Positions 12,515-37,824 of a stretch of DNA of 64,000 nt are shown one piece after another. Source of the DNA: Rossellomorea vietnamensis (GTDB taxonomy: Bacteria; Bacillota; Bacilli; Bacillales; Bacillaceae_B). Numbering within the stretch: position 1 is the first letter of the stretch; the number at the start of each line of letters is the position of its first letter. The notes beneath the pieces were generated by a model. That model ran no database searches, was not told where the DNA came from, and saw only the letters and a list, made by a program, of their open reading frames with translations. Where the stretch lies: contig NZ_CP104558.1 of the NCBI RefSeq assembly GCF_025398035.1, positions 1,984,001-2,048,000 on the forward strand, given 5' to 3'. The translations under genes were made by a program, and so were the position numbers.

Positions 12515-12623
12515 AGTCCTTCAGATGCCGAAACCAGATGATCGCCGTATCACGACTGAGCAGCCGGTGAGGATAAGCCCCCTTGATCATCTTCACCAGC
12601 TCCCTGAACTCACCCGAAGTCAT
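12510..12623 (-). pseudogene. Truncated helicase-loader/inhibitor (G39P-like) start
   Basis: The first 38 or so residues, MTSGEFRELVKMIKGAYP followed by a Trp-containing helix and HLKDCEYDG, resemble the N-terminus of the small phage helicase-loader inhibitors of the G39P type. Beyond about residue 40 the frame is an out-of-frame reading of the DnaB sequence, so the gene has lost its 3' part. Its ATG overlaps the stop of the DnaD-like gene (ATGA), the normal coupling in such modules. The family assignment rests on a short stretch and is tentative. Confidence 0.4.
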
Positions 12624-13474
12624 GCCTCCGTCACAATCTCCTCAAGCCCGTCCAAGAAGTCATCCATGTCCTGCATCGCTTCCCGGGGAGTGATATACCC
12701 CTCAAGAGCCTTCTCCAAATACTTCGGACTGTTGATTGTCAGTTTCGGATTAATGCTCTGCTGTCTGTCAAACTCCTCATCCATGAACACAATCAGCTCC
12801 TCCGTCGACAACTCGCTCAAACTGATCCGCTCCATCGCCACATAATCCATCGGCGTCAAGATCAGTCCTCTCTCCCTCCTGCCAACGAAATGCCCGATCA
12901 GCGCCTGCAGCCTATTTACATCCTTAGTGTCTCTAGTGGCAGTGGTGTTGATGTTGTTGTTCTCTAAGATCTCTTCTTTCTCTAATTTCTTAAGTCTGTT
13001 TGCAGGTTCTCTCCGCACCTGTTTCACATCCTTTTCGCCGCACGAAGACCCTCCGGAACCAGCCCCATCATCAGGCTGATCATCACCGGATTCCTCACGT
13101 CCCTCTTCCTTCTTAGACATCCCCACTCAACTCAAATACTCCGCACAGGCAAAATCTTTCGTCGGTCTCAGCGTAAACACATACCCATGCTCATACTTCT
13201 CCGCCTTCAACCACCCACACTTCTCCAACCGCTTAATAGAACGCTGAATCCGCGAATGCGAATACTCATCAATCTTCTTCCCATTATAGAACCACAGATC
13301 CTCCCGCAGCTTCCGGAGCGAACGCACATACTGCCTCTCCCCAACCTGAACCCCACCTTGATACGTTGCATTCAACAGAATCAACACATACAACCGAAGA
13401 TCCTCCGGGTGGTGAAACGTCTCCTTATCCAACATACCTGTCTCCAACTTTCTCCATCCATTCATTACAATCAC
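12620..13474 (-). pseudogene. DnaD-like phage replication protein, copy 1, interrupted by an in-frame TGA
   Basis: Compared with the intact copy at 23282-24136, the Trp codon in EYLSWMGMSK has become TGA near 13127, with GTG following. This gives a 115-residue N-terminal part (13127-13474, winged-helix-like, starting MIVMNGWRKLETGML) and a 168-residue C-terminal part (12620-13126). The N-terminal part would bind DNA; the C-terminal part, after a Ser/Gly/Glu-rich linker, ends in an all-alpha region containing RGLILTPMDYVAMERISLSE. A good GGAG precedes the first start. Two separate proteins coupled by TGAGTG are possible, but decay is more likely given the broken genes downstream. Confidence 0.7.
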
Positions 13475-13556
13475 TCCTCATTCATTTTGGTTTCACCCTT
13501 TATATAGGGGGATGGGAGTGAAAGGGACACCCTATGGATAAATTTTATATAAAAAA

Positions 13557-13579
13557 ACATTCGGGTGGGGTCCGAATGT
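13557..13579 (-). terminator. Hairpin upstream of DnaD-like copy 1 (part of R1)
   Basis: ACATTCGG and CCGAATGT form a perfect 8-bp stem with a GC-rich loop; on the minus strand a T-run follows. The same hairpin is present in the right copy. It would stop transcripts entering from upstream. Confidence 0.7.
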
Positions 13580-13585
13580 TTGAAA

Positions 13586-14699: not shown

Positions 14700-16241
14700 T
14701 CATTCCTCTTCACCCTCACCAATAATATCCAAGGCTTTTATTGCGACGAATATTTCATCAGGCACCTTTGAAGAATCTACAGTATCCTGTAGCTTTTTAC
14801 GCGTTTTTTCCTCATCAATTTTTATCAATTGCTTTTGGCTAATTTGATTTATTCTCAATGACATATAAGTATCATACGTATTTTGTGGGATTAATTTAGT
14901 ATTAATGTTAGAAGCGTTCTTTGCAGAAAAACGATTTAAAAGAACGTTGAGATACAAATAGACATAGTCATTTTCCTCTTTATAATTTTCTTCTACAAAC
15001 TCATATAAAGCTATTTGAATATCCTCATTCACAAATCTTTTTACATCCTTTTCAACGCCTAAATTATTTGCAGTTTCTAATAAGATTAAGATGATGCTAG
15101 GATTTAGTGTTTCTTTGTTTATTTCTTTTTCCAAACTCTTTACAGTGAATTCCTTTATTTCTTCAAGTTTAGTTTCATCTTCTACTATCTTATAACTATT
15201 TACTACACTTGGTAGATATAAAAATAGATACTCCCAATCATTCTTTATTTCAACAAATGCTGAATCCAGGAACTTCTGTAAGGAAGGCTTATTGAAATAA
15301 TCAACCGAATGATAATGGTTAGCTATAGTGATACCTTGCTCAGTAGCTGCTAAATTAATAGTTGAACTAGGATTACTCCATCCATTCTCTAATGACATAC
15401 TTACTAAGAAATCAATGATCACTTTTTTATCCTTTTCACTAATGGAATCTTCAAAAACAGACAAAAAATAAAATAAAAATTCAGTGTTAACTTTATTATT
15501 CATATAGTCTTCTATTACCATTTTTACTTCTTTAGATTTGACAGTATGAGTAAAATCTTTACCTGATATCTGTTTCAGGTAATATAAGTCAAGAAGGCTT
15601 TGGAAATTCAAATCACCTATCTCAATATTATTATTAAGCTGATTTAAGGTATCTTTACTAATATCATGTCCCAATAAATGATAGAGATATGCATAATAGA
15701 CTACCTTATCGTTAATAGCCTTTTCTAATAAATCCTTATGATCAAAATCACCAAATGAAGATAAATTGAGATACTTTTTTGATAAAATTAATACTTCATT
15801 TGCTTCTTTGTTATTCCCAAGTTGAATTAAACTGTTCGTTTTCTCTAAGTAATTGATTATTTCTTTTCGGTTTTCATTGGAAATATCAAACTGATCTTTC
15901 AAATATAAATATTTCATTAACTTTCCTTCTGATTCGCTCCGTTCGTCCCCATCTAACATTAATTCATCTGTATTTATCTTATCAATCCAACTCACTAGTC
16001 CATCTTTATTATGTATTTTAATATTATATGTATCTAGTATTTTCACTACCCAATAAGTATTGTTTAGATCTGGTTTTTCATTATTCGTAAAACCACTTTC
16101 AAAGTCACTATCCAGATAATTCAATTTTGATTTCAATAACAAGTCTTGAACATTTTCGTTTAATGCCTTTTTTTCAACAGGATCGCTCATACACCCTGTA
16201 AGTAACATGATTATAATTGAATAGATGATAAATTTCTTCAT
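14700..16241 (-). CDS. Large hypothetical lipoprotein
   Basis: The protein begins MKKFIIYSIIIMLLTGCMSD: a lipoprotein signal peptide with lipobox LLTGC, so it is anchored on the outer membrane face. The start at 16241 is preferred because GGAGG sits directly before it; an in-frame ATG 15 bp upstream does not have this. The remaining roughly 500 residues are helix-rich and very rich in Lys, Glu, Asn and Leu, with no family I recognise; an alpha/alpha-barrel or repeat fold is conceivable. It follows the secreted protein gene behind a strong hairpin and ends convergent with the signal peptidase gene. An immunity or receptor role for the secreted protein is speculation. Confidence 0.75.
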   Translation of the reverse strand: MKKFIIYSIIIMLLTGCMSDPVEKKALNENVQDLLLKSKLNYLDSDFESGFTNNEKPDLNNTYWVVKILDTYNIKIHNKDGLVSWIDKINTDELMLDGDERSESEGKLMKYLYLKDQFDISNENRKEIINYLEKTNSLIQLGNNKEANEVLILSKKYLNLSSFGDFDHKDLLEKAINDKVVYYAYLYHLLGHDISKDTLNQLNNNIEIGDLNFQSLLDLYYLKQISGKDFTHTVKSKEVKMVIEDYMNNKVNTEFLFYFLSVFEDSISEKDKKVIIDFLVSMSLENGWSNPSSTINLAATEQGITIANHYHSVDYFNKPSLQKFLDSAFVEIKNDWEYLFLYLPSVVNSYKIVEDETKLEEIKEFTVKSLEKEINKETLNPSIILILLETANNLGVEKDVKRFVNEDIQIALYEFVEENYKEENDYVYLYLNVLLNRFSAKNASNINTKLIPQNTYDTYMSLRINQISQKQLIKIDEEKTRKKLQDTVDSSKVPDEIFVAIKALDIIGEGEEE

Positions 16242-16260
16242 GTAAACCTCCAACAAATGA

Positions 16261-16296
16261 AAACCTCAATTAGTTACGAATAACTAATTGAGGTTT
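16261..16296 (-). terminator. Perfect long hairpin between secreted-protein and lipoprotein genes
   Basis: AAACCTCAATTAGTT and AACTAATTGAGGTTT form a perfect 15-bp stem with a six-base loop. The following minus-strand sequence is moderately T-rich. It starts 7 bp after the stop of the secreted-protein gene and lies just before the lipoprotein ribosome binding site, so it should lower lipoprotein expression relative to the secreted protein. Confidence 0.7.
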
Positions 16297-16303
16297 ATAT
16301 TCA

Positions 16304-16804
16304 TTAAAATACTCTAGTATATCCATCGATATCTGATTTAAAACCATTACTCACATCGATATAAGCTGATGGGTATATTCGAATACTCGTAATTGTTCCT
16401 GCTACAGGAACAACATCTTTGTAAGATACTGAAACTACTGTTCTATATCCTGTTGCATAACCACTGTATGTGGTATTTTTAGCGAAGTCTGCTGTTTCAG
16501 AAGAGTATGTACCAAACCATGATCTTTGAGAATGTTCTGCATATCCAGTAACCCAAGCAGAATCAATTGTTGGACTTCCACCGAAAGCGTCTTCAAGGTT
16601 AAGTGCACCCCAACCATTATATGTAAGAGTTCCAGCTCCTAGCTTAACAGTTCCCTGCGTTGCCAATTTAACTCCACCATGACTTGCCGCGTGAGTTGAA
16701 TAATTCCAACTCGCACTTGTAAATGCAGCACTTGCGCTACTAGAAAAAAGTGCTCCGAACGCTAAAAAGGATAAGACAAAAATTACAGACATTTTTTTTC
16801 TCAT
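16304..16804 (-). CDS. Secreted hypothetical protein with Sec signal peptide
   Basis: A 166-residue protein with a clear signal peptide: MRKKMSV, a hydrophobic core and the cleavage motif SSSASA-A near residue 27. The mature part (about 139 residues) has no cysteine and is rich in Gly, Ser, Thr, Tyr and aromatic residues (SWNYSTHAASHGG, YNGWGALNL, WVTGYAEHSQRSWFGTYSS), which suggests a beta-rich secreted protein. I do not recognise the family; a bacteriocin-like or cell-surface protein is possible. A GAGGTGAGC-type ribosome binding site precedes the start. It forms a unit with the downstream lipoprotein through the long hairpin. Confidence 0.75.
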   Translation of the reverse strand: MRKKMSVIFVLSFLAFGALFSSSASAAFTSASWNYSTHAASHGGVKLATQGTVKLGAGTLTYNGWGALNLEDAFGGSPTIDSAWVTGYAEHSQRSWFGTYSSETADFAKNTTYSGYATGYRTVVSVSYKDVVPVAGTITSIRIYPSAYIDVSNGFKSDIDGYTRVF

Positions 16805-17111: not shown

Positions 17112-17151
17112 AAGAAAAAAGCAAGAACCCACCTATAGTTGGGTCCTTGCT
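17112..17151 (-). terminator. Terminator of the RiPP operon
   Basis: AGCAAGGACCCA pairs with TGGGTTCTTGCT on the minus strand, followed by TTTTTTC. It lies about 110 bp after the oxygenase gene, the last gene of the operon. The remaining 300 bp up to the secreted-protein gene start at 16804 show no gene. Confidence 0.85.
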
Positions 17152-17258
17152 CTTTTGAAGATAGAGGTTACTATGTTAATCTGTACAGATTATTCCATTG
17201 GTTATAGATACAGTTTTCCGAGAGCAGTTGGAGTAATCTATGGTTGACTATTACCTAC

Positions 17259-17870
17259 TTAGTTTTCCTCATTGAAGAAGAAATTATGTGATAATCTTGC
17301 ATTTTCTCTTGTATCACCAAATTGTTCCGTGACTGAATGAAAATATTTCGAACCTTTTAATAACACCAACCTGTTAAATTTCATCGGTACAAATTCAATC
17401 AATTCCCATTTATTCATATCATTTGTATCTGGATAAACTACTTTTTGATCAAGATCTTTAATGCTGGAGTACCCTTTCTTGTTCAATTCTCCCTGTGCAG
17501 GAACACAAGTTAAGCCGCTATCCATATGCTTATAGACTCCCAGTCCCCCTTCACAATGTTCATCCAGTGTAAGGTATACAATTGCACTCCAGGTCGCTTT
17601 ATCTAAGTGAACAGAAGAAAGAGACTCTGAATTTCGAAGAGAATACCGAAACTTTCCATACGTTAATTGATGAGGATTAATTTCAATATCACGCTCTAAG
17701 TACTTAGAAAACTTAGTTTTGTACATTTGATTATAAAAAGAGTGTTTACTTTCAAAGCCAGGTACATTCTTATTAACAAATTGTAAATACTCTGCTTCCA
17801 ACGCCAAATTTCGTATATTATATGGGTTATCATAAAAATCATCTACCACAATCAGATCTGTTTTTTCCAT
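17259..17870 (-). CDS. 2OG-Fe(II)-oxygenase-like protein (DUF6445-like), putative RiPP tailoring enzyme
   Basis: The 203-residue protein has the arrangement of a double-stranded beta-helix dioxygenase. HLD (His88, Asp90) and YFHS (His178) would bind iron, and an arginine at about residue 192 in ENARLSHNFFF would bind 2-oxoglutarate. Regions between them (WSAIVYLTLDE, GGLGVYKH, FNRLVLLKGSKYFHS) match the core strands of this fold. It starts 4 bp after the MFS gene and is the last gene of the operon. It most likely hydroxylates a residue in the repeat peptide, for example Pro, Asp or Trp. The fold is supported by the motif; the substrate is inferred from context only. Confidence 0.65.
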   Translation of the reverse strand: MEKTDLIVVDDFYDNPYNIRNLALEAEYLQFVNKNVPGFESKHSFYNQMYKTKFSKYLERDIEINPHQLTYGKFRYSLRNSESLSSVHLDKATWSAIVYLTLDEHCEGGLGVYKHMDSGLTCVPAQGELNKKGYSSIKDLDQKVVYPDTNDMNKWELIEFVPMKFNRLVLLKGSKYFHSVTEQFGDTRENARLSHNFFFNEEN

Positions 17871-17873
17871 TGC

Positions 17874-19121
17874 TTATACCTCCCTTAACATCCTTTTGTT
17901 ACTAACAACCTTTATAAAAACGAGTGTGCCTAATAGTCCGTACACTAATAGGATCATTGCAATATAGTAATGATTTAAAAAAGCACCTATTATTAGTGAA
18001 AAGGATCCAGTCATTGCTGCCCCTCTTCCAACTAATCCGTTTATTGCCAAAAACGCACCTTTATTGTTTTCTGGTATATACTCAGATAGATATGTCTTCT
18101 TTATTGGCCAATAAAGCATCTCACCTAAAGTTGCTATCAACATGGCAATGAATAAAATGGAATAATTAAAATTAATAACCAATAGCATATAGCCAAGGAC
18201 ATTTAAAGAAATCCCTATTATTAATAGATGCATTCCATTCATATTCTTCACCCATTTAGCTACACTAAGACTTAGCAACATGATCAACAATGCATTTTCC
18301 GCTCTTAAAAACCCATACATTTGAGTACCGCTGAGTGAAATTCCGCCTATCAGTGTTTGACTTTCAATTAATTCAGATAAGTTAACCCCAAAATAATTCT
18401 TCGCTTGGGTTTCTACCGATAAGATTAGGAATGAGGCTAACACAATTAACAAGAATGCCTTATTCCGCTTTACGATGGATAAATTTTGAGCAAGCTTGGA
18501 TAAAGGAGATTTGGATTTACTTACTCCATCCATTGTCATGGACGTTTTCGGTATGCTTTCTTTTATAAAATACACTACTATAAATAAAGAAACGGACGAT
18601 ATAAAAAAGCACAGCAAGAAAACATAAAATTTATAGTCTTCAAAGAAGTAACCACCTATAACCGAACCTAAAAATAGGGCCGTATTTAAAGTCCAGTATT
18701 CAATACTAAAGATTTCTTTCCTTTCTTCTAATGTGCTTACATCCAATAGCATCGCTTGATTTGTAGGGACCGAAATACCTGCAGTCGCATTAATAATAAC
18801 AAACATAACAAAGCTTATTTCAGCTGAGTGAAAGAGAGTAGAATTAGAAAGAACAATGATCCCTAAACTTACTAATCTTATAGAACCACAAATAATAAGA
18901 GTTTTCCTTCTACCATATTCATCAGATATATGGCCACCTAGAAGACTTGAAATTATCCCAGATGCAAAGTAGATTGAAAGTAAGATTCCGGCATTCGCTA
19001 TACCAAACTCCCCAGCGAAATAGATAGCCAAAAAAGGGAGCATCATATTATAAACAGCGGAACTCATAAAAGCATCGATCATCCTAAATTTAATATTAGG
19101 ATGCAGTTCTTTAAATTTCAT
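17874..19121 (-). CDS. MFS transporter, putative exporter of the RiPP product
   Basis: A 415-residue protein with about twelve transmembrane helices. The family's loop 2-3 motif is visible as GGHISDEYGRRKTL, and a central cytoplasmic loop (residues about 190-210) separates the two six-helix halves. It is of the drug-efflux type. Its start overlaps the end of the dehydratase gene by 11 bp, and the oxygenase gene follows after 4 bp, so it is a core member of the operon. Export of, or self-protection from, the modified peptide is inferred. An MFS protein replaces the usual LanT-type ABC transporter, which would suit small proteolysed units better than the 233-residue precursor. Confidence 0.85.
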   Translation of the reverse strand: MKFKELHPNIKFRMIDAFMSSAVYNMMLPFLAIYFAGEFGIANAGILLSIYFASGIISSLLGGHISDEYGRRKTLIICGSIRLVSLGIIVLSNSTLFHSAEISFVMFVIINATAGISVPTNQAMLLDVSTLEERKEIFSIEYWTLNTALFLGSVIGGYFFEDYKFYVFLLCFFISSVSLFIVVYFIKESIPKTSMTMDGVSKSKSPLSKLAQNLSIVKRNKAFLLIVLASFLILSVETQAKNYFGVNLSELIESQTLIGGISLSGTQMYGFLRAENALLIMLLSLSVAKWVKNMNGMHLLIIGISLNVLGYMLLVINFNYSILFIAMLIATLGEMLYWPIKKTYLSEYIPENNKGAFLAINGLVGRGAAMTGSFSLIIGAFLNHYYIAMILLVYGLLGTLVFIKVVSNKRMLREV

Positions 19122-22100
19122 AATTAAACTTCCTTTTATTTTCTAGATTCTTCATTAAGTGTCTTACGACTCCAAGAACCCTAACCTCTTTTTTCTGATC
19201 AGGTCCAAATAACCTATTTAAATTCATGTGGATTAATTCCCCCATAATTTGATAAGGATCCACTAGTATTTCGTTTCGACTATTGGTTGATGAAATTTCC
19301 TTTATGTAACTACAAAGTGCATGTCGCCGACTTTCTAGGCCAACCCCAATAAAGGCAGGAAGTACATCAAGGTTCATTTCTATTTCGCTTCGTGAGCAAA
19401 TAAAGCTCTTCATATAAACGGTCTTTCTATCTCTAAATTCCTCTAAATTACTTTGATATGGAACAATTGAGTCAATCCACGACACCACTACATTGTGTGG
19501 TAAATGAAACGTATTTATAATGTCATAAATACTCATCACCGCTATATCGATTTTGCTCCATATAGATCCACTCTCTAGCCTAGAATCCAGCCAATACATG
19601 ATTGATTCACTATCTGCTTTGAACCATTTTTCAGCATAGTTCAATAAATATCTTCCACCATACTTTTGTGTTTCTGGCTCATACGTATCAATTACGATAT
19701 TATTTACAAAGGATTTATTTAGAAGCCGCAACTTTTGTAATAAATAGAATATAATTTGTTCAGTGGCTTCTTCTGATACTGTTTTTATTCTTAGCCTAAT
19801 ATGTTTCCGAGGATCTGAATACTTCAGAAAATACCAGGTATCAATAACCCCTTTACTATATAGCTCTTGTATCCATGATTTTAATCTTCCTTTAATAAAA
19901 TCATCTTGAATGGTACCAGACATATATATTCTTAGAGAAGTCCATATCTCTCCAGGAAAATAATGTACTTTTTCATCTGGCACCATCATCAAATTCTGCT
20001 GGCTGACACTGCTCTTATAACGATCATTAGACATTAAAGGCAAAACAATTTCTTGTGAATATCCATCACTGTTATTTCCTTTGAAGTTCTCATTTGATTC
20101 CACCATAACCAAGGATGCATTCTCTTTCAGCCTCTTAGCCTCAACATGAATTTTCTGCAAATCCCTCAAATTATCCAAATTGAAAACTAGTCTGTTTGAA
20201 GTAGTACCTAAATGAATATAAGTCGGTACCTTGTTTAATTCCTTCCATTCCTTGAACTTCTTGATGAATGATTCAAAAGAATCTAATCTGTCTAGATTTA
20301 TTAATGAAAGGTTAAAAAGCCACCTGGCAGAGTATAAAATAGTATTTTTGTACCTAACTCTTGGTAAGGAATTCAAACTTTCTAGCCTTCCCCAATTAAA
20401 AGGAGTCCAATTATTTTGGTTCTCATACTCTAAATCACAAAGGAATCTAGCAATATCCGGGAATGACTTGTGACTTAGCATATGATTTTTCACAGGTATG
20501 ACCTGCTTATTTAATTTCTTTGACTTTAAATAAAAAGAGTTTTTTTCAACTCCCACTAACAAATCATCTAAATCAATAATGTGGAAGTCATTCGATCTAC
20601 ATGAATTAATTGCGATGTAGTAATGGAATGGAGAGGTTTTAGGCAGAACATTTATGGACTTGGAATTTATAGGAATATAATCTATTTCTGCATATATTAT
20701 TTCTTCATCTGTCCTCCTCCTTAACTCCGAAAAGATCCTTTCATCAAATTTTTCATTAAGACGATGATAGAAAGAATTAAACCTAGAAAATGTTTTGCCA
20801 GCTCCTCTACTACCAACATTTGGACCAAGAATAATGGAATAGGATTTATCCTTACCAGGAAGAATCGTTTCCTTAATATATTCAAAATAAAGCTCTAATG
20901 AATTAGGTTTATTCTTATTTTCTTTATTATATGTAAGCTTATGTATCAGATCATCGGTCAGTATTAATTCTGCTTGTTTATTAGATGTAAGGTGCTTTAA
21001 TTCATTAAATAATATTGCTTCCTTCTTATCAGTATTCGCAAATAGCTTCTGTCTTACTTTGTATGGGGAACCTATACCTAAATCTTCATCCAATAGTTCT
21101 TTTAATGGGATTTCCCTTCTAACGCCATATTCTTTTATAAATAGTTCTCTATAACTTTCTATTTGGTTAAATGACTCATCTTTCCTTGATAATTGATAAA
21201 GAACTTCCGCTACTTCTTCAATCTCAGCACCGACTTCTGGAGGTAAGTTACCTGTTTTTTGTTGTTCATATAAATTTACTGCAAAAGGCAAGTTTATTGG
21301 ATATTTCTCCTTTAACCGTCCCCCTATATGTTTCAAAGCATGTCTTCCTGATCCTAACTTCATGGCTTCATATTCATCTAGGAGTTTATGGATTTCTTTT
21401 AACTCATTAAACTGTTTGGATTCAGTGATTAAACTTTTCTCATGTTCCGTATAGTTGGATTGACGCATTGAAAAGTAATAGGAATCCACTTCAGAAATAA
21501 AAAAACTCCATTTATATAGTTTCAAGATAAAAACTTCCACTTGCTCTTTATGAATTGATTCAAATTCATCATTAACTATTTTGATTACTTCACTCAGCAA
21601 TGTTAACTCCTTAAACTTTTCATATAGGAACATAACGAGTTTATCCTGCTTTATATAATTTTCACTAAATTTCCCGTTCATTTCCTTGTTTGGAGCTAGA
21701 ACATATACTTTTCCTTCTTTTATAAATAGGGATGGATTAACTTTAACCTTAAGTTTTTCGAGTATTTCATGATTATAAACCAATTCTTTATTAAATAATT
21801 GCAACCATTGACTATCAACATCTATTTCTTTGTTATATGAAGACATGTGTGTATAAGAGACTTCATTACCAAATTCACCGAATCCTACACTTGACATTAA
21901 ACCAAAAGGTGTAGATCTTGAAGACATTCTATTCAAATAGTTCATTAGGCTCTCCACTATCTGCGTCTTCTGTTTTATACTCTTTTTATTAAAATGATTT
22001 ACAAAAGTTGAAAGAGAACTACTTGATACTTCTAATGCTTCCAAAAAAAATTCTTTCATTTTATATTGATCTAGATATAAAAATATCTTTTGGAAGTTGG

Positions 22101-22230
22101 ACTCAGGGTCATCATTAAGCTCACTATTAATTTCTTCATATAGTCTGAAGGGTATCTTAGATGTTCTTGTCATAAAGAAATCAAAGTGTTTAAACGTTGT
22201 CTTTGTTTTTTCATTTTTTTTTAAATTCAA
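19111..22230 (-). CDS. Full-length LanB-type lantibiotic dehydratase
   Basis: The 1039-residue protein has the length of class I LanB dehydratases. The N-terminal glutamylation domain (about residues 30-690) contains the typical RSTPFGLMSSVGFGEF motif near residue 105 and GPNVGSRGAGKTFSRF. The C-terminal SpaB_C/thiopeptide-type elimination domain starts near residue 757 with IWTSLRIYMSG and contains WYFLKYSDPRKHIRLRI. Having both domains, it should glutamylate Ser/Thr with Glu-tRNA and eliminate to dehydroalanine or dehydrobutyrine. The start is a TTG after GAGAGG. It is the second gene of the operon, after the repeat precursor and an intercistronic hairpin. No LanC cyclase gene is present. 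Confidence 0.92.
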   Translation of the reverse strand: MNLKKNEKTKTTFKHFDFFMTRTSKIPFRLYEEINSELNDDPESNFQKIFLYLDQYKMKEFFLEALEVSSSSLSTFVNHFNKKSIKQKTQIVESLMNYLNRMSSRSTPFGLMSSVGFGEFGNEVSYTHMSSYNKEIDVDSQWLQLFNKELVYNHEILEKLKVKVNPSLFIKEGKVYVLAPNKEMNGKFSENYIKQDKLVMFLYEKFKELTLLSEVIKIVNDEFESIHKEQVEVFILKLYKWSFFISEVDSYYFSMRQSNYTEHEKSLITESKQFNELKEIHKLLDEYEAMKLGSGRHALKHIGGRLKEKYPINLPFAVNLYEQQKTGNLPPEVGAEIEEVAEVLYQLSRKDESFNQIESYRELFIKEYGVRREIPLKELLDEDLGIGSPYKVRQKLFANTDKKEAILFNELKHLTSNKQAELILTDDLIHKLTYNKENKNKPNSLELYFEYIKETILPGKDKSYSIILGPNVGSRGAGKTFSRFNSFYHRLNEKFDERIFSELRRRTDEEIIYAEIDYIPINSKSINVLPKTSPFHYYIAINSCRSNDFHIIDLDDLLVGVEKNSFYLKSKKLNKQVIPVKNHMLSHKSFPDIARFLCDLEYENQNNWTPFNWGRLESLNSLPRVRYKNTILYSARWLFNLSLINLDRLDSFESFIKKFKEWKELNKVPTYIHLGTTSNRLVFNLDNLRDLQKIHVEAKRLKENASLVMVESNENFKGNNSDGYSQEIVLPLMSNDRYKSSVSQQNLMMVPDEKVHYFPGEIWTSLRIYMSGTIQDDFIKGRLKSWIQELYSKGVIDTWYFLKYSDPRKHIRLRIKTVSEEATEQIIFYLLQKLRLLNKSFVNNIVIDTYEPETQKYGGRYLLNYAEKWFKADSESIMYWLDSRLESGSIWSKIDIAVMSIYDIINTFHLPHNVVVSWIDSIVPYQSNLEEFRDRKTVYMKSFICSRSEIEMNLDVLPAFIGVGLESRRHALCSYIKEISSTNSRNEILVDPYQIMGELIHMNLNRLFGPDQKKEVRVLGVVRHLMKNLENKRKFNYEI

Positions 22231-22255
22231 AAATTCCTCTCTCCCACAAAAGAGA

Positions 22256-22281
22256 ACGTTAGGGGTAACACCGCCTAACGT
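22256..22281 (-). other. Intercistronic hairpin between precursor and dehydratase genes
   Basis: ACGTTAGG and CCTAACGT form a perfect 8-bp stem with a 10-base loop, followed on the minus strand by TCTCTTTTGT. This weak terminator would let the precursor be made in excess of the dehydratase, the usual design of RiPP operons. Confidence 0.65.
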
Positions 22282-22295
22282 CCCTGTATATATTT

Positions 22296-22997
22296 TTACA
22301 TTGCTTTAAGAATTGGGCTTTCCCAGCCTGTTTCTGTATCAGCTGCTCTTAACGGGCTCTCCCAACCTGTTTCTGTGTCGGCTGCTCTTAACGGGCTCTC
22401 CCAACCTGTTTCTGTGTCGGCTGCTTTTAACGGGCTCTCCCAGCCTGTTTCTGTATCAGCTGCTCTTAACGGGCTCTCCCAGCCTGTTTCTGTGTCGGCT
22501 GCTCTTAACGGGCTCTCCCAACCTGTTTCTGTGTCGGCTGCTCTTAACGGGCTCTCCCAGCCTGTTTCTGTATCAGCTGCTCTTAACGGGCTCTCCCAGC
22601 CTGTTTCTGTATCAGCTGCTCTTAACGGGCTTTCCCAACCTGTTTCTGTATCAGCTGCTCTTAACGGGCTTTCCCAACCTGTTTCTGTATCAGCTGCTCT
22701 TAACGGGCTTTCCCAACCTGTTTCTGTATCAGCTGCTCTTAACGGGCTTTCCCAACCTGTTTCTGTATCAGCTGCTCTTAACGGGCTTTCCCAACCTGTT
22801 TCTGTATCAGCTGCTCTTAACGGGCTTTCCCAACCTGTTTCTGTATCAGCTGCTCTTAACGGGCTTTCCCAACCTGTTTCTGTATCAGCTGCTCTTAACG
22901 GGCTTTCCCAACCTGTTTCTGTATCAGCTGCTCTTAACGGGCTTTCCCAACCTGTTTCTGTGTCAGCATTGTGCCAACCATTACCATTTTCGCTCAT
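22296..22997 (-). CDS. Multi-core RiPP precursor with 17 tandem 13-residue units
   Basis: The 233-residue peptide consists of a 10-residue head (MSENGNGWHN), sixteen units of ADTETGWESPLRA (one with Lys for Arg) and a last unit ADTETGWESP ending ILKAM. Each unit has two Thr, one Ser, one Trp, one Pro and one basic residue; there is no Cys. It lies first in an operon with a LanB-type dehydratase, an MFS transporter and a 2OG-oxygenase-like protein, so it is the obvious substrate. Dehydration of Thr/Ser and cleavage at the conserved Arg/Lys to give many identical short peptides are inferred. AGGAGGT and a consensus-like promoter precede the start. A structural repeat protein is the alternative, but less likely beside LanB. 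Confidence 0.88.
   Translation of the reverse strand: MSENGNGWHNADTETGWESPLRAADTETGWESPLRAADTETGWESPLRAADTETGWESPLRAADTETGWESPLRAADTETGWESPLRAADTETGWESPLRAADTETGWESPLRAADTETGWESPLRAADTETGWESPLRAADTETGWESPLRAADTETGWESPLRAADTETGWESPLRAADTETGWESPLKAADTETGWESPLRAADTETGWESPLRAADTETGWESPILKAM
22315..22968. repeat. Tandem 39-bp repeat, 17 copies, inside the precursor gene
   Basis: The 39-bp period encodes the 13-residue unit. The eight units at 22627-22938 are identical. Units toward the C-terminus differ only at a few mostly synonymous positions (CAG/CAA, GTATCA/GTGTCG, CTC/CTT on the plus strand) in a mosaic order. The pattern points to recent expansion by slippage or unequal crossing over. There are no spacers, so it is not a CRISPR array. 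Confidence 0.97.
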
Positions 22998-23067: not shown

Positions 23068-23281
23068 TTGTCATTATAATACAAAAATCTTCCTTTTCAT
23101 TAAGATATAACTAGAGTTATTATTTTAATTTTCAGAAAAAATGAGGTGACCTAGTTGAATAGTAAACTAACAAGACGATGAAATATGCAGAAAACATAGT
23201 ATGAGATCAATTAAGAATTGCCCTCGAATTACTTAAGTTCATTCTTGATAAAATAGTCATCCACAATGAATTCCCCGAACG

Positions 23282-24136
23282 TCATGCCTCCGTCACAATC
23301 TCCTCAAGTCCTTCCATGAGGTCATCGATGTGCTCCATGGATTCCCGAGGAGAAATGTACCCCTCAAGGGCCTTCTCCAAATACTTCGGACTGTTGATCG
23401 TCAGCTTCGGATTAATGCTCTGCTGTCTGTCAAACTCCTCATCCATGAACACAATCAGCTCCTCCGTCGACAACTCGCTCAAGCTGATCCGCTCCATCGC
23501 CACATAATCCATCGGCGTCAAGATCAATCCTCTCTCCCTCCTGCCAATGAAATGCCCGATCAGCGCCTGCAGCCTCTCTTCTTCCTTAGTGCCGTTAAGG
23601 TTGGTGGTGTTCTCCTTCTCTTCTTTCTCTAAGTTCTTAAGTCTGTTTGCAGGTTCTCTCCGTACCCCATTCACATCCTTTTCGCCGCACGAAGACCCTC
23701 CGGAACCAGCCCCATCATCAGGCTGGTCACCACCGGATTCCTCACGTCCCTCTTCCTTCTTAGACATCCCCATCCAACTCAAATACTCCCCACAGGCGAA
23801 ATCCTTCGTCGGCCTTAGCGTAAACACATACCCATGCTCATACTTCTCCGCCTTCAGCCATCCATCCCTCTCCAACCGCTTAATCGAACGCTGAATCCGC
23901 GAATGCGAATACTCATCAATCTTCTTCCCATTGTAGAACCACAGATCCTCCCGCAGCTTCCGGAGCGAACGCACATACTGCCTCTCCCCAAGCATCACAC
24001 CGCCAACCTGAACCCCGCCTTGATACGTCGCATTCAACAGAATCAACACATACAACCGAAGATCCTCAGGGTGATGAAACGTCTCCTTATCCAACATACC
24101 TGTCTCCAACTTTCTCCATCCATTCATTACAATCAC
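23282..24136 (-). CDS. DnaD-like phage replication initiation protein, intact copy
   Basis: The 284-residue protein has an N-terminal winged-helix-like region (MIVMNGWRKLETGML, HSRIQRSIKRLERDGWL), an acidic/Gly-rich linker around residues 125-185 and an all-alpha C-terminal region with RGLILTPMDYVAMERIS and FMDEEFDRQQSINPKL. This is the two-domain layout of phage primosome proteins that load the helicase at the origin. The start follows a GGAG site. Copy 1 at 12620-13474 has the same sequence with a nonsense codon. No helicase or loader gene follows this copy, so it is an orphan and its present role is unclear. Confidence 0.75.
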   Translation of the reverse strand: MIVMNGWRKLETGMLDKETFHHPEDLRLYVLILLNATYQGGVQVGGVMLGERQYVRSLRKLREDLWFYNGKKIDEYSHSRIQRSIKRLERDGWLKAEKYEHGYVFTLRPTKDFACGEYLSWMGMSKKEEGREESGGDQPDDGAGSGGSSCGEKDVNGVRREPANRLKNLEKEEKENTTNLNGTKEEERLQALIGHFIGRRERGLILTPMDYVAMERISLSELSTEELIVFMDEEFDRQQSINPKLTINSPKYLEKALEGYISPRESMEHIDDLMEGLEEIVTEA

Positions 24137-24219
24137 TCCTCATTCATTTTGATTTCACCCTTTATATAGGGAGATGGGAGTGAAAGGGACACCCTATGGA
24201 TAAATTTTTTATAAAAAAA

Positions 24220-24242
24220 ACATTCGGGTGGGGTCCGAATGT
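24220..24242 (-). terminator. Terminator hairpin upstream of the intact DnaD-like gene
   Basis: ACATTCGG and CCGAATGT form the same stem as in the left repeat, followed on the minus strand by a run of eight T. It insulates the gene from upstream transcription. Confidence 0.75.
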
Positions 24243-24309
24243 TTTTTGGGGAGTTATAGTATTCTATCTTCATAAAATTAGTAGAGAAAGTAAAGGAACC
24301 AAAACCTTA

Positions 24310-27468: not shown

Positions 27469-27501
27469 AGCCGCAAGTTCCTTCTTGTGGCTTTTTCTTT
27501 T
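27469..27501 (+). terminator. Terminator after the endonuclease remnant
   Basis: AGCCGCAAG and CTTGTGGCT pair (one G-U) and are followed by TTTTCTTTT. It lies directly after the remnant's stop codon, as expected for the original gene's terminator. Confidence 0.8.
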
Positions 27502-27601
27502 AAGCCCAAAATATTTATATGTAGGAACCCTATTGAGCGATGTTTATCTCTCCCAAAAGCTAGGTAGTATAAACATATACCATAAAAAGGAGTTCGTTAA
27601 A

Positions 27602-28024
27602 ATGAAGAACCCTAAAACAACCGAGGACAGAAGTAGAATCATGGGGTCCATCAAAGCTGTCTCGAAATTGGAAAACATGGTGACCGAGGAATTGTGGAGC
27701 CGGGGTTACAGGATTCGTAGAAATGTTAGGTCATTAAAAGGAACGCCCGATATCGCCATAAAAAAGTATAAAATAGTGGTCTTTATTGACTCCTGCTTTT
27801 GGCATCTATGCCCGATTCATGGCAAGATACCTAAATCCAACGTCGAGTTCTGGACTGAAAAGCTTACCAGGAACCAAGAACGAGACAAGGAAGTGACTGA
27901 ATACTACGAGGAAAAGAAATGGAATATTTTGCGCCTTTGGGAACATGAAATACGAGGGGAATTCGAAACCGCAATTCAAAAGATTAGTGACTTCATTGAT
28001 GAAGCAAAAATGGAATATAAATAA
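27602..28024 (+). CDS. vsr: Very short patch repair (Vsr) endonuclease
   Basis: The 140-residue protein is a Vsr endonuclease. It shows DRSRIMGSIKAV at the N-terminus, the catalytic aspartate in LKGTPDIAI, the zinc-binding/active site FIDSCFWHLCPIH and the C-terminal WNILRLWEHEI. It nicks DNA 5' of a T:G mismatch that arises when 5-methylcytosine deaminates. The start MKNPKTTEDR at 27602 is chosen because AAGGAG lies 9 nt upstream; the frame stays open further upstream without a signal. It is convergent with the C5 methyltransferase gene, whose mutagenic product it would counter. Confidence 0.93.
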   Translation: MKNPKTTEDRSRIMGSIKAVSKLENMVTEELWSRGYRIRRNVRSLKGTPDIAIKKYKIVVFIDSCFWHLCPIHGKIPKSNVEFWTEKLTRNQERDKEVTEYYEEKKWNILRLWEHEIRGEFETAIQKISDFIDEAKMEYK

Positions 28025-28057
28025 AGAACTCTCCTAATCAAATCAGAAGAGTTCTTT
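28024..28057. terminator. Bidirectional terminator between vsr and the methyltransferase gene
   Basis: AAAGAACTCT and AGAGTTCTTT pair perfectly; A-run and T-run flank the stem on both sides, so it can end both convergent transcripts. Confidence 0.8.
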
Positions 28058-28060
28058 TGC

Positions 28061-29323
28061 TCATTGTCCATCGGTTTCCGAAAATACCAAGTCAAGTTCA
28101 ACTTGATTCCCATCTATATTTTCTTGCTCGATTTGCGATACCCGTTTACCCATGCGCTCTATCAAACCGACGACCAAGGCATTCCCCATACAGAAGTATC
28201 TCATCCGGTCGGTCATCCCCTCCGTCCAATCATCCGGGAATCCATTAAGGCGCTCACATTCGACCGGTGTCAGGATACGAAGTCTTTTCGTCTGTGGATC
28301 TTCCACTACATGAGTGCTCCGGTTGACAGTGCCTTCGCTTGTCAACATCGTCCTTCCTGGCTTGTCTAACGCCTCAGGGAAAGCCATGCCACCTTCGGAG
28401 AATGTGTATTTATGGCCTGTGGCTGACGTCCTTTCAATCCTTTTGGGACCTTTTAAATACGTGAACTTTTCAATGGCCGCTTCCGACAAATAATATTTTT
28501 CGTCAACGTCAGATTGAAGGATATCCTTCAATGGAGTCGGTGAATCCTCTAAAGGTGTGACTTCTTCCGTATAAACCAGATCGTCTCTCATGATGCCGGC
28601 ATTATAGTAACTCATCGAAAATTCATCTGAGATTTCAACAAGGTCCTTCTTCATGATAAAAGATTGAGGCTTTTTCTTTTCAGAAATACCTTCCTTCACA
28701 GGGAATGCCTTCGCAAAGAAGCCTTCCCCGTGTATCATCTGAGTTTCATCGAACCCTCTTCTATTATCGACATAAGGGGTTTCATTCTTAGTGGCAAAAA
28801 TGAAGACCCTCCTCCTTCTCTGGGCTTGTCCATATTCAGCCGCATTGATGACTCTCCACTCCACTGAATATCCCAAGTCCCTGAAGCTCGCCAACATGAT
28901 TGAGAAGTCCCTTCCCCGTTGTTTGGAAGGTGACTTCAGCAATCTATCCACATTTTCAAGCAAAACATATTTTGGGCTAGTCTCCCTCATCAGGCGGGTA
29001 ATTTCCCAGAAGAGGACCCCTTTCTTACCTTGCAGCCCCTTTTCCCCATTTAAACTCCTCGCCACTGAATAATCCTGGCAAGGGAATCCACCCACAATCA
29101 TATCGATATCCTCGTTCTTGAAAGTCTCTCCATCCACCTTGCTGATATCTTCATTGGAATGTTCACCTTGACCTTCAAATCTACGTGCATAACAATCGAA
29201 TGCATGTTGCGCCTTCTTGGAAGGCTCCCATTGGTTACCCCACACAACATCAAAACCGCCTGCAGCCTCAAGACCTATTCGGAAGCCGCCGACTCCGGCA
29301 AATAATTCTATTACATTTATCAT
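28061..29323 (-). CDS. C5-cytosine DNA methyltransferase, Sau3AI-type (GATC) candidate
   Basis: The 420-residue enzyme carries the C5 methylase blocks in order: ELFAGVGGFRIGL (AdoMet binding), GGFPCQDYSVARS (catalytic Cys), LLENVDRLLKSP, QRRRRVFIFA and, at the C-terminus, LTPVECERLNGFPDDWT and MGNALVV. The stretches NQWEPSKKAQHAFDCY and HSNEDI resemble M.Sau3AI-type methylases as I recall them, and the intact Sau3AI-like endonuclease at 31472 supports GATC as the target. It protects host DNA from that enzyme and creates the T:G mismatches repaired by the neighbouring Vsr. The specificity is inferred. Confidence 0.9.
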   Translation of the reverse strand: MINVIELFAGVGGFRIGLEAAGGFDVVWGNQWEPSKKAQHAFDCYARRFEGQGEHSNEDISKVDGETFKNEDIDMIVGGFPCQDYSVARSLNGEKGLQGKKGVLFWEITRLMRETSPKYVLLENVDRLLKSPSKQRGRDFSIMLASFRDLGYSVEWRVINAAEYGQAQRRRRVFIFATKNETPYVDNRRGFDETQMIHGEGFFAKAFPVKEGISEKKKPQSFIMKKDLVEISDEFSMSYYNAGIMRDDLVYTEEVTPLEDSPTPLKDILQSDVDEKYYLSEAAIEKFTYLKGPKRIERTSATGHKYTFSEGGMAFPEALDKPGRTMLTSEGTVNRSTHVVEDPQTKRLRILTPVECERLNGFPDDWTEGMTDRMRYFCMGNALVVGLIERMGKRVSQIEQENIDGNQVELDLVFSETDGQ

Positions 29324-29660
29324 GACCGAACATCCTTTCGGTTTTTTACTTATTCATATTATATTAAAAGTTGTCCAAAAGATCAACTATTTTGTTGAAG
29401 AATATTAAAATTCATTGGAATTCATTAACTTACCACAAAAATATATTATAACAGAAAAAATGTTAATCAATATAGTGCAGATTATAGTAAATATTTCTGA
29501 TATCCAGTATATAAATCTTAATTAATAGGGTTTGATATAGTTACTTTGCATACTCAATTCCCCTTTTAAATATTACACACCATATATATGTAATATTTGG
29601 TAAACTGTTATTATTAGTTTTAAATGGTTTTTTTGTGATTTGAAGAATTAAATCCCTACA
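29324..29660. promoter_or_regulatory. Divergent AT-rich intergenic region
   Basis: About 340 bp between the methyltransferase start and the next gene on the plus strand. It is very AT-rich and must hold promoters for both; several TATAAT-like hexamers occur (for example near 29350 on the plus strand) but none has a clear -35 partner. No gene is seen. Confidence 0.4.
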
Positions 29661-29678
29661 AACGTGGTGAATATATTA

Positions 29679-30458
29679 ATGGTAAATAAAGTAAATGAAT
29701 TCTTAAATAATTTTATGGAAGAAAAACTAGAGTTATTATGTGATGAACTTTTATCAGAAAAAATGAAAATGAAATATGGTCTCCATTACCACTCCTACGG
29801 TATCTCTTTTGAAAATGTTTTTGCAGAACTCACTTTTATCCTTATGTATGAAGAAAACTCTTATGAACTTTTTCAAAATCACCTTTTTAGAATGGCTTAT
29901 TGTCTTCTCGAAAGAACGCCAATAAAAGAACTGACTTTACTTTCAATGGGAATAAGTAGGAAAGATGTATATGCAAAAGAGGAGTCTCTTTTACAAGAAA
30001 TTTCAAGAAGAATTATTGAACTGGCAAATAAAAAAGTTCTTATCCTCCTATCATTACAATCTGATGAAATCTATGACATTTATATTCATCAAATATTAGA
30101 ACACATAATGGCCATCCCCTGCGGTATAGCCAATTTTGAAGATTATAAGATTCAAAGTTATTGGGATGAATTTTGTGTAATTATACAAGAGGGTTACGAC
30201 TATCACCTAGGATTTTTCTATGAAGAAATCATTGATTATATTTTGGGTGTATTAAGAAAAGTTCCTATAGTAGAATTGAAGTTATTATACTCAGGTACTG
30301 ATGAGGTGTGGGACCAAGGGCATCAAAATCCTCTTTCTATTCATGAGGGGACATATGATTCAATTGCTAACAGGATGTTCAATTTAATCTCATATATTGC
30401 ATCTTCAGAACATATTGACCATATTTTGTTTCCAGAATTAGAAGGAATCGATGAGTAG
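29679..30458 (+). CDS. Hypothetical protein inside the restriction-modification locus
   Basis: About 259 residues, acidic and helix-rich (FMEEKLELLCDELLSEKMK, LERTPIKELTLLSMGIS), with no motif I recognise. The ATG at 29679 is chosen; a GTG 15 bp upstream is in frame and neither has a strong ribosome binding site. The middle of the protein appears to repeat its own layout: two halves contain YELFQNHLFRMAYCLLERTPIKEL and a similar FFYEEIIDYILGVLRKVPIVEL, suggesting an internal duplication. It stands between the methyltransferase and the HNH gene. A regulatory or defence role is possible only from context. Confidence 0.6.
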   Translation: MVNKVNEFLNNFMEEKLELLCDELLSEKMKMKYGLHYHSYGISFENVFAELTFILMYEENSYELFQNHLFRMAYCLLERTPIKELTLLSMGISRKDVYAKEESLLQEISRRIIELANKKVLILLSLQSDEIYDIYIHQILEHIMAIPCGIANFEDYKIQSYWDEFCVIIQEGYDYHLGFFYEEIIDYILGVLRKVPIVELKLLYSGTDEVWDQGHQNPLSIHEGTYDSIANRMFNLISYIASSEHIDHILFPELEGIDE

Positions 30459-30793
30459 TATATGAAGAAAGCAAATATCAATTTGAATTGTTCTTACTAA
30501 CGAAAGGTATGATTCGTTTCAATAGATAAACTAATCACGGCTTCGGGCTAATTGATATCATACTAATCACTCGTGAGTATTTTGATATCTGCTCCTTTTG
30601 GTGCAGCAAAACGTAAAAGTCATTTCAACGTGAAATGACTGATGTAATAATATAAATCGTCTTCCCTTTTCGGGTTTTTTCATGTAACTCTACCCTATTT
30701 AATATTATTTTAATGATTGAAAAAATGGGAGGACTCTTTGAAAAAAGCAGAAAAAACTCATATGTCATATGTCAGAAGAAGGCTTTAGCAAGA
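30459..30793. other. Intergenic interval with hairpins
   Basis: About 335 bp without a gene. AGTCATTTCAACGTGAAATGACT at about 30617-30640 is a perfect stem-loop that may terminate the hypothetical gene upstream. A CTTCCCTTTTCGGG stretch lies near 30661. Confidence 0.4.
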
Positions 30794-31093
30794 TTAAGCG
30801 GGGTAAGTTGTACTGTCAAAGTATAAACCATTTTCTTTCCTATCAAGCATGGCATGACAGTTAGGACATACTGGGATGAGGTCTTTGATTGGATCCACTT
30901 TGTAGTCTTTTTGGATTTCATGAAGCGGTACTATGTGGTGGACATGAATGAAGTCCCTTCCGACCTCCCCATACATATCCTCCAAGTTAAGCTCACAAAT
31001 TTGGCACTCGACACCATAATACTCCATACATTTTTTACGGCCATGTGGGTTTCTTTCATAAACATTGACATTGATGGTAATCGGGTTAATCAT
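30794..31093 (-). CDS. Small HNH endonuclease, probably the C-terminal module of a lost larger enzyme
   Basis: The 99-residue protein is an HNH module alone. It reads VNVYERNPHGRKKCMEYYG, then zinc ligands CQICELN, the catalytic DFIHVHHIVPLHEI, and CPNCHAMLDRKENG. The same module ends the larger protein at 24745-25785, with a closely similar spacing. The N-terminal recognition domain usual in this family is missing, so the gene may be a truncated remnant or a free-standing nicking module. It has a GGAGAAATG-type start. It lies between the methyltransferase and the Sau3AI-like endonuclease. Confidence 0.75.
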   Translation of the reverse strand: MINPITINVNVYERNPHGRKKCMEYYGVECQICELNLEDMYGEVGRDFIHVHHIVPLHEIQKDYKVDPIKDLIPVCPNCHAMLDRKENGLYFDSTTYPA

Positions 31094-31471
31094 TTCATTT
31101 CTCCTTATTATAAAGAGTGAAGCAAAGCGCCTTAAAACTAAAAGAACTCCATATCAAAAAGAGGAACCCTACTCCATCAAATAAGTAGATACCGACTATC
31201 CTGTAAGAATATGCAGTTAAGCTGAATGGGGGGCAGGCCCCGTTTTAAAATACTTTTGCAGTATATCTTCGGAAAAATAAAGCATGCGAACGAAGTCGGA
31301 ATTGGTTACATACTTAAATACTTATGATGAATGGATATTTGTCAATATTATATAAAATCAAATACTAATTCTTATAGAAAGATTATCAAAACTTAGCTAC
31401 CACGTTATTACAGCCATTGATATACTATATATAAACAATTATTGATAATATTGTAAGAGGGGTAGATTAGT
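31094..31471. promoter_or_regulatory. Divergent intergenic region before the Sau3AI-like gene
   Basis: About 380 bp between the HNH gene and the endonuclease gene on the plus strand. TATACTATATATAAACAATT near 31423-31440 could provide the -10 region of the endonuclease. No gene, repeat or clear operator seen. Confidence 0.35.
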
Positions 31472-33124
31472 TTGAGTAGTGTTTATAATTCCAAAGAGAA
31501 AGTACACAAACGAGCATTGGAAGCAATCGGAAAGACCCTGGGAGAAATTGATGTTAAAAGAACTTTGAATATTAATAATAAATCTTATCCAGGTAATGTA
31601 ATAGAACAAATCTGGTTTGATCACCCAGCGGATAATAATGCAGATCCAGACTTTCCAGAAGCTGGAGTAGAATTAAAGGTCACTCCAATTGATATACAAA
31701 CAAAAAAAATTAACAAGAAAAAAATCACAAAAATCATTGCTGGGGAAAGACTAGTCTTAAATAAGATTAATTACCAAAATGAATTTGGTAAATCGTTTGA
31801 ACAAAGTTCATTCTGGCATAAGAATAAGCTAATCGAATTAATTCAATATTATAGACGTGATGTAGCAGATAAGAAAAAGATTTCTAGTGGAGAGATGATA
31901 GAGGATAAGACAAAATTTCGAGTTTCATACGCTAACCTTCTTACAATGACAGAGTTAAAAGAATTTGATTTGCCTAAAGACACGGTAATAAAAATCCCTG
32001 AAAAAGATTTAGAAATCATCAAGCAAGACTGGAATAAAATATCCGAACTCATAAACTCCAGTAAAGCTCATCAAATATCTGAAGGGATTACAAATTATCT
32101 AGGAGCTTGTACAAAATCAACAACAAGTGCTGTTTTTACAAAACAAAAGAATACAACTGTCCCTGCGAAGCCTAGAGCCTATTCATTTAAAGCAAAATTC
32201 ATTAATGAACTTATTAATAATCATATTATTGGTAAAGACCACACCGATGCAATTGTAAGCATTGTGAAAGATGTTAGTGAACTAAAAAGTAAAACTCTGG
32301 AGGAAATAATTTTATCTAGGTTCAAACCTTATTACGGTATGAACCAAAATGAATTAATACAAAAACTTGGAATCAGAATAGGAAAAAGCCAACCACAAAA
32401 AAACATTAACAATATGATAATTCGTGGTATTCTAAATTTGCCAACCACTACAGATGAAGTTACATCAGAAGAAATTGAAAAAGCAGATATTAGCTTAAAA
32501 ACGGTTGCTTTAAGGAATGGTCAACCAAAAGAGCATTTTAAATTTATGGGAATCCCTTCATTTATCAATCTAGTTAACGAATCATGGGAGGAATCCTCAG
32601 TAAATGATTTCTTAGAAAGAAAAAAATTTCTACTCCTTGTCTTTAATGATCTCAATAAAAAGAAAAAGGATGGAAAGTCTTACGAAGCTAACCGTGAGAA
32701 AATTATTTTCAAAGGCGCTACCTTTTGGAATATGCCAATTTCTGATTTAGATGGGACAGTACGGAATATTTGGGAAACAGAAGTAAACAAAATGAAAAAT
32801 GGTGTTGAATTAACTTTTTCCAAAAATGATAAGGATGAAATCAAAGTGAAAAATAACTTCATTAAACCCTCTCTCGAAGCTATCTTACATCTTCGTCCAG
32901 ATGCCAAAGTTGCACAATACAAATCACAATACTATAAAAACGTGGTAGACAACGGTATTCCTAAAAAGAAATTAATGAATAATGCCAGGAAATTACCCAG
33001 TCCAGCTAAATGGATAAATCGACCAGAAAATGAAAAAGAAAATTTCACAGATGATTATATGACAAAACAAGCTTGGTGGTTAAGTAAAGATTATATTTAT
33101 GAACAAATTAAAGGTATGCTGTAA
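31472..33124 (+). CDS. Sau3AI-like type II restriction endonuclease (GATC candidate)
   Basis: The 550-residue length fits the Sau3AI family, which is built from two MutH-like domains. In the N-terminal domain the active-site triad is visible as ADPDFPEAGVELKVTP (Asp, then Glu-x-Lys). The second, regulatory MutH-like domain begins near residue 230 and ends in ILHLRPDAKVAQ and TKQAWWLSKDYIYEQI. The start is a TTG preceded by GAGGGG; no better start exists downstream before conserved sequence. Together with the C5 methyltransferase at 28061 and Vsr it forms a GATC-type restriction-modification set, although two other genes have moved in between. Confidence 0.88.
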   Translation: MSSVYNSKEKVHKRALEAIGKTLGEIDVKRTLNINNKSYPGNVIEQIWFDHPADNNADPDFPEAGVELKVTPIDIQTKKINKKKITKIIAGERLVLNKINYQNEFGKSFEQSSFWHKNKLIELIQYYRRDVADKKKISSGEMIEDKTKFRVSYANLLTMTELKEFDLPKDTVIKIPEKDLEIIKQDWNKISELINSSKAHQISEGITNYLGACTKSTTSAVFTKQKNTTVPAKPRAYSFKAKFINELINNHIIGKDHTDAIVSIVKDVSELKSKTLEEIILSRFKPYYGMNQNELIQKLGIRIGKSQPQKNINNMIIRGILNLPTTTDEVTSEEIEKADISLKTVALRNGQPKEHFKFMGIPSFINLVNESWEESSVNDFLERKKFLLLVFNDLNKKKKDGKSYEANREKIIFKGATFWNMPISDLDGTVRNIWETEVNKMKNGVELTFSKNDKDEIKVKNNFIKPSLEAILHLRPDAKVAQYKSQYYKNVVDNGIPKKKLMNNARKLPSPAKWINRPENEKENFTDDYMTKQAWWLSKDYIYEQIKGML

Positions 33125-37819: not shown

Positions 37820-37824
37820 TTTCT

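Follow-up and report, generated by a model that had tools for sequence, protein, structure and literature searches.

In the 64,000-nucleotide window of Rossellomorea vietnamensis DNA analyzed here (contig NZ_CP104558.1, positions 1,984,001 to 2,048,000; all coordinates below are positions in this window), four open reading frames (ORFs) are arranged head to tail on the minus strand and encode a repeat precursor, a LanB dehydratase, a major facilitator superfamily (MFS) transporter, and a DUF6445 protein. We propose, with a probability of roughly 60%, that they form a multi-core operon for a ribosomally synthesized and post-translationally modified peptide (RiPP), in which LanB and the DUF6445 protein likely modify 17 Cys-free units to give a small, linear, thioether-free peptide exported by the MFS protein. 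The sequence itself shows the 17 units, the order of the genes, the enzyme families, and the lack of Cys in the precursor; the absence of LanC comes from a search, and the folds come from models only. The peptide would be about 13 residues long and is likely dehydrated and likely hydroxylated. The operon and its elements are as follows.

22296..22997, minus strand: repeat precursor of 233 amino acids (ORF, TRF, unit count)
22231..22295, minus strand: intergenic hairpin between the precursor and LanB genes, a possible attenuator or processing element (RNA folding)
19111..22230, minus strand: full-length class I lantibiotic dehydratase (LanB), TTG start (Pfam, sequence, fold, catalytic positions)
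17874..19121, minus strand: MFS transporter, LmrP-like (PF07690, LmrP match)
17259..17870, minus strand: DUF6445 protein, predicted 2-oxoglutarate (2OG)-Fe(II) oxygenase, H88-x-D90...H178, R192
17115..17156, minus strand: intrinsic terminator downstream of the operon, 17-pair stem and T-run
23073..23100, minus strand: possible sigma-A promoter upstream of the precursor, pattern no better than chance

The precursor is composed of a 10-residue N-terminus, MSENGNGWHN, followed by 17 copies of the core ADTETGWESP, with the spacer LRA after 15 cores, LKA after one, and a terminal ILKAM after the last. A basic residue is present in the spacer after 17/17 cores (Arg in 15, Lys in two), and the protein contains 34 Thr, 18 Ser, 18 Trp, and no Cys. 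TRF detected a 39-bp period with 16.7 copies and 97% matches at 22315-22967, and the best internal periodicity of the protein reached 0.927 identity, compared with at most 0.214 among 1000 shuffles of its residues. Within the core, the 17 units vary at five codon positions, all of them synonymously (GCT/GCC, GAT/GAC, GGT/GGC, GAA/GAG, and CCG/CCA), and amino-acid changes are confined to the three spacer residues. The expected synonymous share is 22% for random single-base changes of the consensus unit and 13/39 for transitions, a comparison limited by the fact that repeat copies arise by duplication and hence are non-independent. The pattern fits a translated, selected peptide better than a drifting minisatellite, and a minisatellite artefact was set aside because the core variation is synonymous only. 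A Pfam match of the precursor to an antitoxin family was likewise rejected as a repeat artefact, no single stretch passing alone. All 17 genomic occurrences of the repeat pattern fall inside the precursor gene, and the viral contigs searched contain none. When the precursor was compared with plasmids by tblastn (E up to 1), seven records were obtained, all below 60% identity; the best was a pentapeptide-repeat protein (6e-24), two others had E values of 2e-7 and 4e-7, and these matches are taken as compositional. An FNLD-type motif is a leader feature of class I lanthipeptides; neither this motif nor a conventional long leader is present in the N-terminus.

An earlier note on this DNA, made from the sequence, had claimed a RiPP-like operon around a repeat precursor, a claim supported by the ORFs, the repeat array, and the enzyme families. 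All four ORFs were found at the coordinates it had given, as was the 11-base overlap of the LanB and MFS genes, and the gap between the MFS and oxygenase genes measured 3 bases instead of 4. Its count of 17 near-identical 13-residue units holds for the cores; full units number only 16, since the last ends in ILKAM. The operon had also been placed between a promoter and a terminator, of which the terminator was recovered and the promoter is weakly evidenced: promoter-like matches in the region numbered 20, below the shuffle mean of 26.5, and of the two best, one (10/12) lay at 23100-23073, 5' of the precursor, and the other at 17101-17072, 3' of the operon. The precursor and LanB genes are separated by 65 bases containing the hairpin, which had a folding energy of -22.5 kcal/mol (z -2.78; 3/200 shuffles equally stable; folded stretch 22231-22300).

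The dehydratase proved to be full length, as had been claimed, with both PF04738 and PF14028 present (Pfam), that is, a glutamylation domain with a RiPP recognition element (RRE)-like region and an elimination domain. It matches MadB, MibB, and NisB by sequence, its model also matches their fold, and 9/11 mapped active-site residues are kept. PEARL enzymes are LanB homologues that lack the elimination domain and add an amino acid to a C-terminus; this assignment was set aside because the elimination domain is present. The two swaps, D299 to N and R826 to K in NisB numbering, correspond to N319 and K856 of this LanB and are typical of its small clade. With two catalytic residues changed, the enzyme could carry out a reaction other than nisin-type dehydration, and its variant active site makes the outcome a real question. 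According to the excerpted text of PMC4341554, NisB D299A still dehydrates in vivo, mainly 7-fold.

Class I lanthipeptide systems (nisin and maddinglicin; NisB, MadB, and MibB) have in common with the operon the two-domain full-length dehydratase, its fold, and the 9/11 active-site residues. In contrast, the operon has no Cys in its precursor, no conventional leader, and an MFS gene with no ABC transporter among the four, as well as a 17-fold core and the D299N and R826K swaps. LanC also differs: at E 0.001 the genome gave no PF05147 match, in a search that was positive in 1/14 control genomes. Lanthionine formation was set aside because the precursor has 0 Cys and the genome no LanC match. 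Among the ten other LanB loci of the order, the cyclase was tested at seven and LanC was found in 7/7; by eye, L017 resembles these seven and L022 resembles another type, and no LanC ORF was seen in the 10-kb contig L018. The earlier note had suggested searching for repeat peptides beside LanB elsewhere, and the repeat gene was found at 0/10 of these loci, none of which has an ORF of at least 50 amino acids with more than 40% self-identity at one period. The operon should not be filed as a lanthipeptide cluster, since the defining Cys and LanC were both sought and neither was found.

The precursor instead resembles those of multi-core RiPPs, in that several near-identical cores stand in one protein beside modifying enzymes. 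We know of no LanB among the orbitides and ustiloxins. With cyanobactins and the microviridin precursor AMdnA, these groups share several cores per precursor, and the modifying enzyme is an ATP-grasp ligase for AMdnA and a heterocyclase for cyanobactins, as described in the excerpted text of PMC5934393. AMdnA, in the same excerpts, has three cores, compared with 17 identical cores here. Goadsporin, as far as the available excerpts of its literature go, resembles the predicted product in having dehydro residues free of thioether rings. Thiopeptides likewise leave dehydro residues without thioether rings, and both goadsporin and thiopeptides are made by split dehydratases and azole enzymes, whereas the operon encodes one full-length dehydratase and no azole enzyme among its four genes. 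No description of a LanB with a tandem-repeat, Cys-free precursor was found in the excerpts of open-access literature searched, a scope that leaves most subscription papers outside.

Members of the 2OG-Fe(II) superfamily share a double-stranded beta-helix, an HxD/E...H motif, and a basic residue that binds 2OG. The fold, the HxD...H motif, and the basic residue were all found in the DUF6445 protein by modeling and alignment (H88-x-D90...H178 and C-terminal R192), in agreement with the 2OG-Fe(II)-like oxygenase noted earlier. The modeled fold is close to the P4H/PHD2/OGFOD1 kind, with which the protein also shares H-x-D...H and the C-terminal Arg, and prolyl hydroxylases tied with enzymes for other substrates. 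No described activity was found for DUF6445, a word that occurs in 0 papers of the open-access literature searched; some members of the family may be peptide-tailoring oxygenases. The MFS protein carries PF07690, and its sole PDB match by sequence is LmrP (9.6e-23), a multidrug transporter whose family is known for drug-sized substrates. A short peptide would be a more fitting cargo for an LmrP-like exporter than the 25-kDa precursor, and for this reason we infer cleavage before export.

In the proposed mechanism, the dehydratase would recognize its substrate by the short N-terminus, by the repeated unit, or by both, glutamylate Thr3, Thr5, and/or Ser9 of the units, and then eliminate to give dehydrobutyrine (Dhb) or dehydroalanine (Dha). 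The oxygenase would hydroxylate a residue of the unit, a first guess from the fold being the Pro of the conserved Ser-Pro. A housekeeping protease would cut at the basic spacer, the MFS protein would export the small peptide, and the product may serve as a secreted antagonist or signal. If this is true, a tandem array nearly devoid of leader would be the substrate of a Glu-tRNA dehydratase, making it possible to study LanB recognition outside the leader model; a linear dehydropeptide would be made without LanC, and DUF6445 would gain a function. With four genes and one 13-residue unit, the operon is compact and should lend itself readily to expression and re-coding. A bolder version, which we advance tentatively and with the odds leaning against it, is that the operon represents a RiPP class new to science, in which a polymer of 17 self-recognized units with little leader would be worked on by a variant Glu-tRNA dehydratase of the D299N/R826K clade and a DUF6445 hydroxylase to give linear, thioether-free dehydropeptides for MFS export. 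In that case, the product stoichiometry would be 17-fold and DUF6445 would be a new family of peptide-tailoring oxygenases.

Several observations weigh against the multi-core operon, and the alternatives draw on some of them. No protease gene is present among the four operon genes, and it is for this reason that cutting by a host protease is proposed. That the repeat protein stays uncut and acts whole as a modified repetitive polymer, such as a surface or binding protein, is unlikely, although it survives best among the alternatives: the lack of a protease and the uniformity of the units agree with it, but inspection by eye revealed no signal peptide, the MFS exporter resembles LmrP and is not a protein secretion system, and a basic spacer residue follows 17/17 cores. 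The active site of LanB provides a second group of points. In a catalytic-site panel that L014 and L017 entered in the second round only, from which a motif filter dropped L022, and in which L019 and L020 look near-identical and three proteins have no C-terminal domain, the D299 equivalent is Asn in 3/4 clade members and Asp in 20/21 others, and the R826 equivalent is Lys in 3/4 clade members and Arg in 18/18 others with the domain. Nothing was found in the literature on NisB R826K, and the results for such NisB residues differ from an earlier study, according to the excerpts of PMC4341554. A clade LanB that only glutamylates, or eliminates poorly, would leave glutamyl esters and not dehydro residues on the units. 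The change of the elimination-site Arg to Lys in 3/4 clade members and 0/18 others favors this second alternative, which is nevertheless improbable given that the R786, E823, and H961 equivalents, also elimination residues, are kept in 4/4 clade members, that P0002, the closest LanB, has Arg at the R826 position, that Arg to Lys is conservative, and that a glutamyl ester would be labile. In addition, the top Foldseek matches of the DUF6445 protein are halogenases (WelO5 and HalA). In 2OG-Fe(II) halogenases such as WelO5 and BesD, Gly or Ala replaces the metal-binding Asp; this residue, D90, is present in 63/63 DUF6445 sequences, and the halogenase assignment was set aside despite the Foldseek ranking. 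As a third alternative, a metallophore or nutritional role for the product, in place of an antagonist or signal role, is quite doubtful: the unit is rich in Asp and Glu, and the iron-uptake factor PiuC is another near match of the oxygenase fold, but no uptake genes are among the four, and a fold match is not function.

Homologues supply further points. The closest LanBs are P0002 (49%), P0003 (44%), and P0004 (41%), and the closest DUF6445 proteins are P0018 (73%) and P0019 (68%), whose longest listed contigs, of 10,935 and 16,097 bases, have the same sizes as those for P0002 and P0003. From these equal sizes, and not from contig sequence, we infer that the LanB-DUF6445 pair is linked on two metagenome contigs; the P0004 contig (4,577 bases) has no DUF6445 match in the DUF6445 homologue list. 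No relative of the precursor was seen in a protein search that did not return even the precursor itself and is uninformative on relatives. The two other genomes of the order with DUF6445 (G232 and G140) are not among the LanB genomes at E 1e-60, and 17 phage records (Synechococcus phages, cyanophages, and marine viruses) contain DUF6445 relatives at 23-32% identity; thus, the family has no fixed association with LanB or RiPPs. In one of these phage records, the match and a feature with the annotation prolyl 4-hydroxylase alpha subunit Fe(2+) 2OG dioxygenase overlap.

LanB occurs once in its own genome, which was the only positive among 36 genus genomes, 41 relatives, and, at E 1e-100, 398 phylum genomes; at E 1e-60, 11/397 order genomes were positive, own included. 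Plasmids gave 106 LanB records, and the 20 listed ones had 24-27% identity. No relative was confirmed by contig scans with LanB or with a four-sequence alignment, or in viral contigs, scans that were insensitive and missed ordinary LanBs too. DUF6445 was matched in 3/397 order genomes, own included, and in 3/348 under a stricter completeness filter, the listed rows of which largely overlap the 397-genome sample. It was also matched in 1/279 class genomes (own), in 1/61 genomes around G140 (G140 itself), and in one plasmid record. A DUF6445 homologue adjoins an MFS gene in a 6-kb contig (L028). In L029 (6978-9883), a 53-amino-acid ORF precedes three DUF6445 genes in tandem and a gene for a CmcI-like methyltransferase, an arrangement that makes it a candidate RiPP cluster of a different type. 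The genomes carrying L028 and L029 are both absent from the LanB-positive set at E 1e-60. On a Piscinibacter plasmid (L030, 3128-11204), a 57-amino-acid ORF lies upstream of a run of DUF692, carbamoyltransferase-domain, TfuA-like, DUF6445, and GNAT genes.

The operon lies in a low-GC island, where GC drops from about 46% to 31-34% in 11/13 two-kb bins at 14-40 kb, the exceptions being 22-24 kb (45%) and 28-30 kb (39%). Direct repeats of about 1 kb, 90.7% identical, bracket a 9.7 kb segment holding the operon.

12605..13581, minus strand: left direct repeat, DnaD-like frame with one internal stop
23267..24244, minus strand: right direct repeat, DnaD-like helicase loader of 284 amino acids at 23282-24136

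The least probable alternative, decay of an ordinary class I lanthipeptide cluster after loss of LanC and gain of the repeat gene, agrees with the low-GC island and with LanB in just 1/36 genus genomes but is contradicted by four open ORFs, synonymous-only core variation, LanB and DUF6445 homologues on contigs of equal sizes, and the lack of any Cys for cyclization. The DnaD-like gene was matched in 29/36 genus genomes, compared with 1/36 for LanB. Four sibling loci were opened. One of them (G006; L050, 2241-16430) has three consecutive DnaD-like copies, the first two of which enclose a lasso-peptide cluster in which B2 scored above the NCBIfam cut-off and the cyclase is an Asn-synthase protein whose lasso-model match was below the cut-off. 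In another (G012; L049, 2487-16300), two DnaD-like copies flank a gene for a 1389-amino-acid SbcC-like ATPase and a DUF2397 gene, possibly a defense system, and the remaining two (G004 and G022) have one DnaD-like copy in the stretch fetched. The DnaD-like site looks like a hot spot for swapped cargo, and this, with the lasso cluster, is the only ground for the guess that the product of the multi-core operon may be an antagonist.

Between the second and third DnaD-like copies of G006 lies a pair of small, secreted-looking proteins. In the window itself, 14700-16804 (minus strand), adjoining the operon, encodes a 166-amino-acid protein with a signal-peptide-like start and a 518-amino-acid lipoprotein-like protein, which gave no Pfam or NCBIfam match except one Pfam match below the cut-off. 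A restriction-modification-like group consisting of a Vsr-like endonuclease, a C5 cytosine methylase, and a MutH-domain protein occupies 27485-33124 of the same low-GC island. At 37115-38727, DUF6119 is split over two adjacent ORFs, which match profile parts 301-522 and 2-283 of 524.
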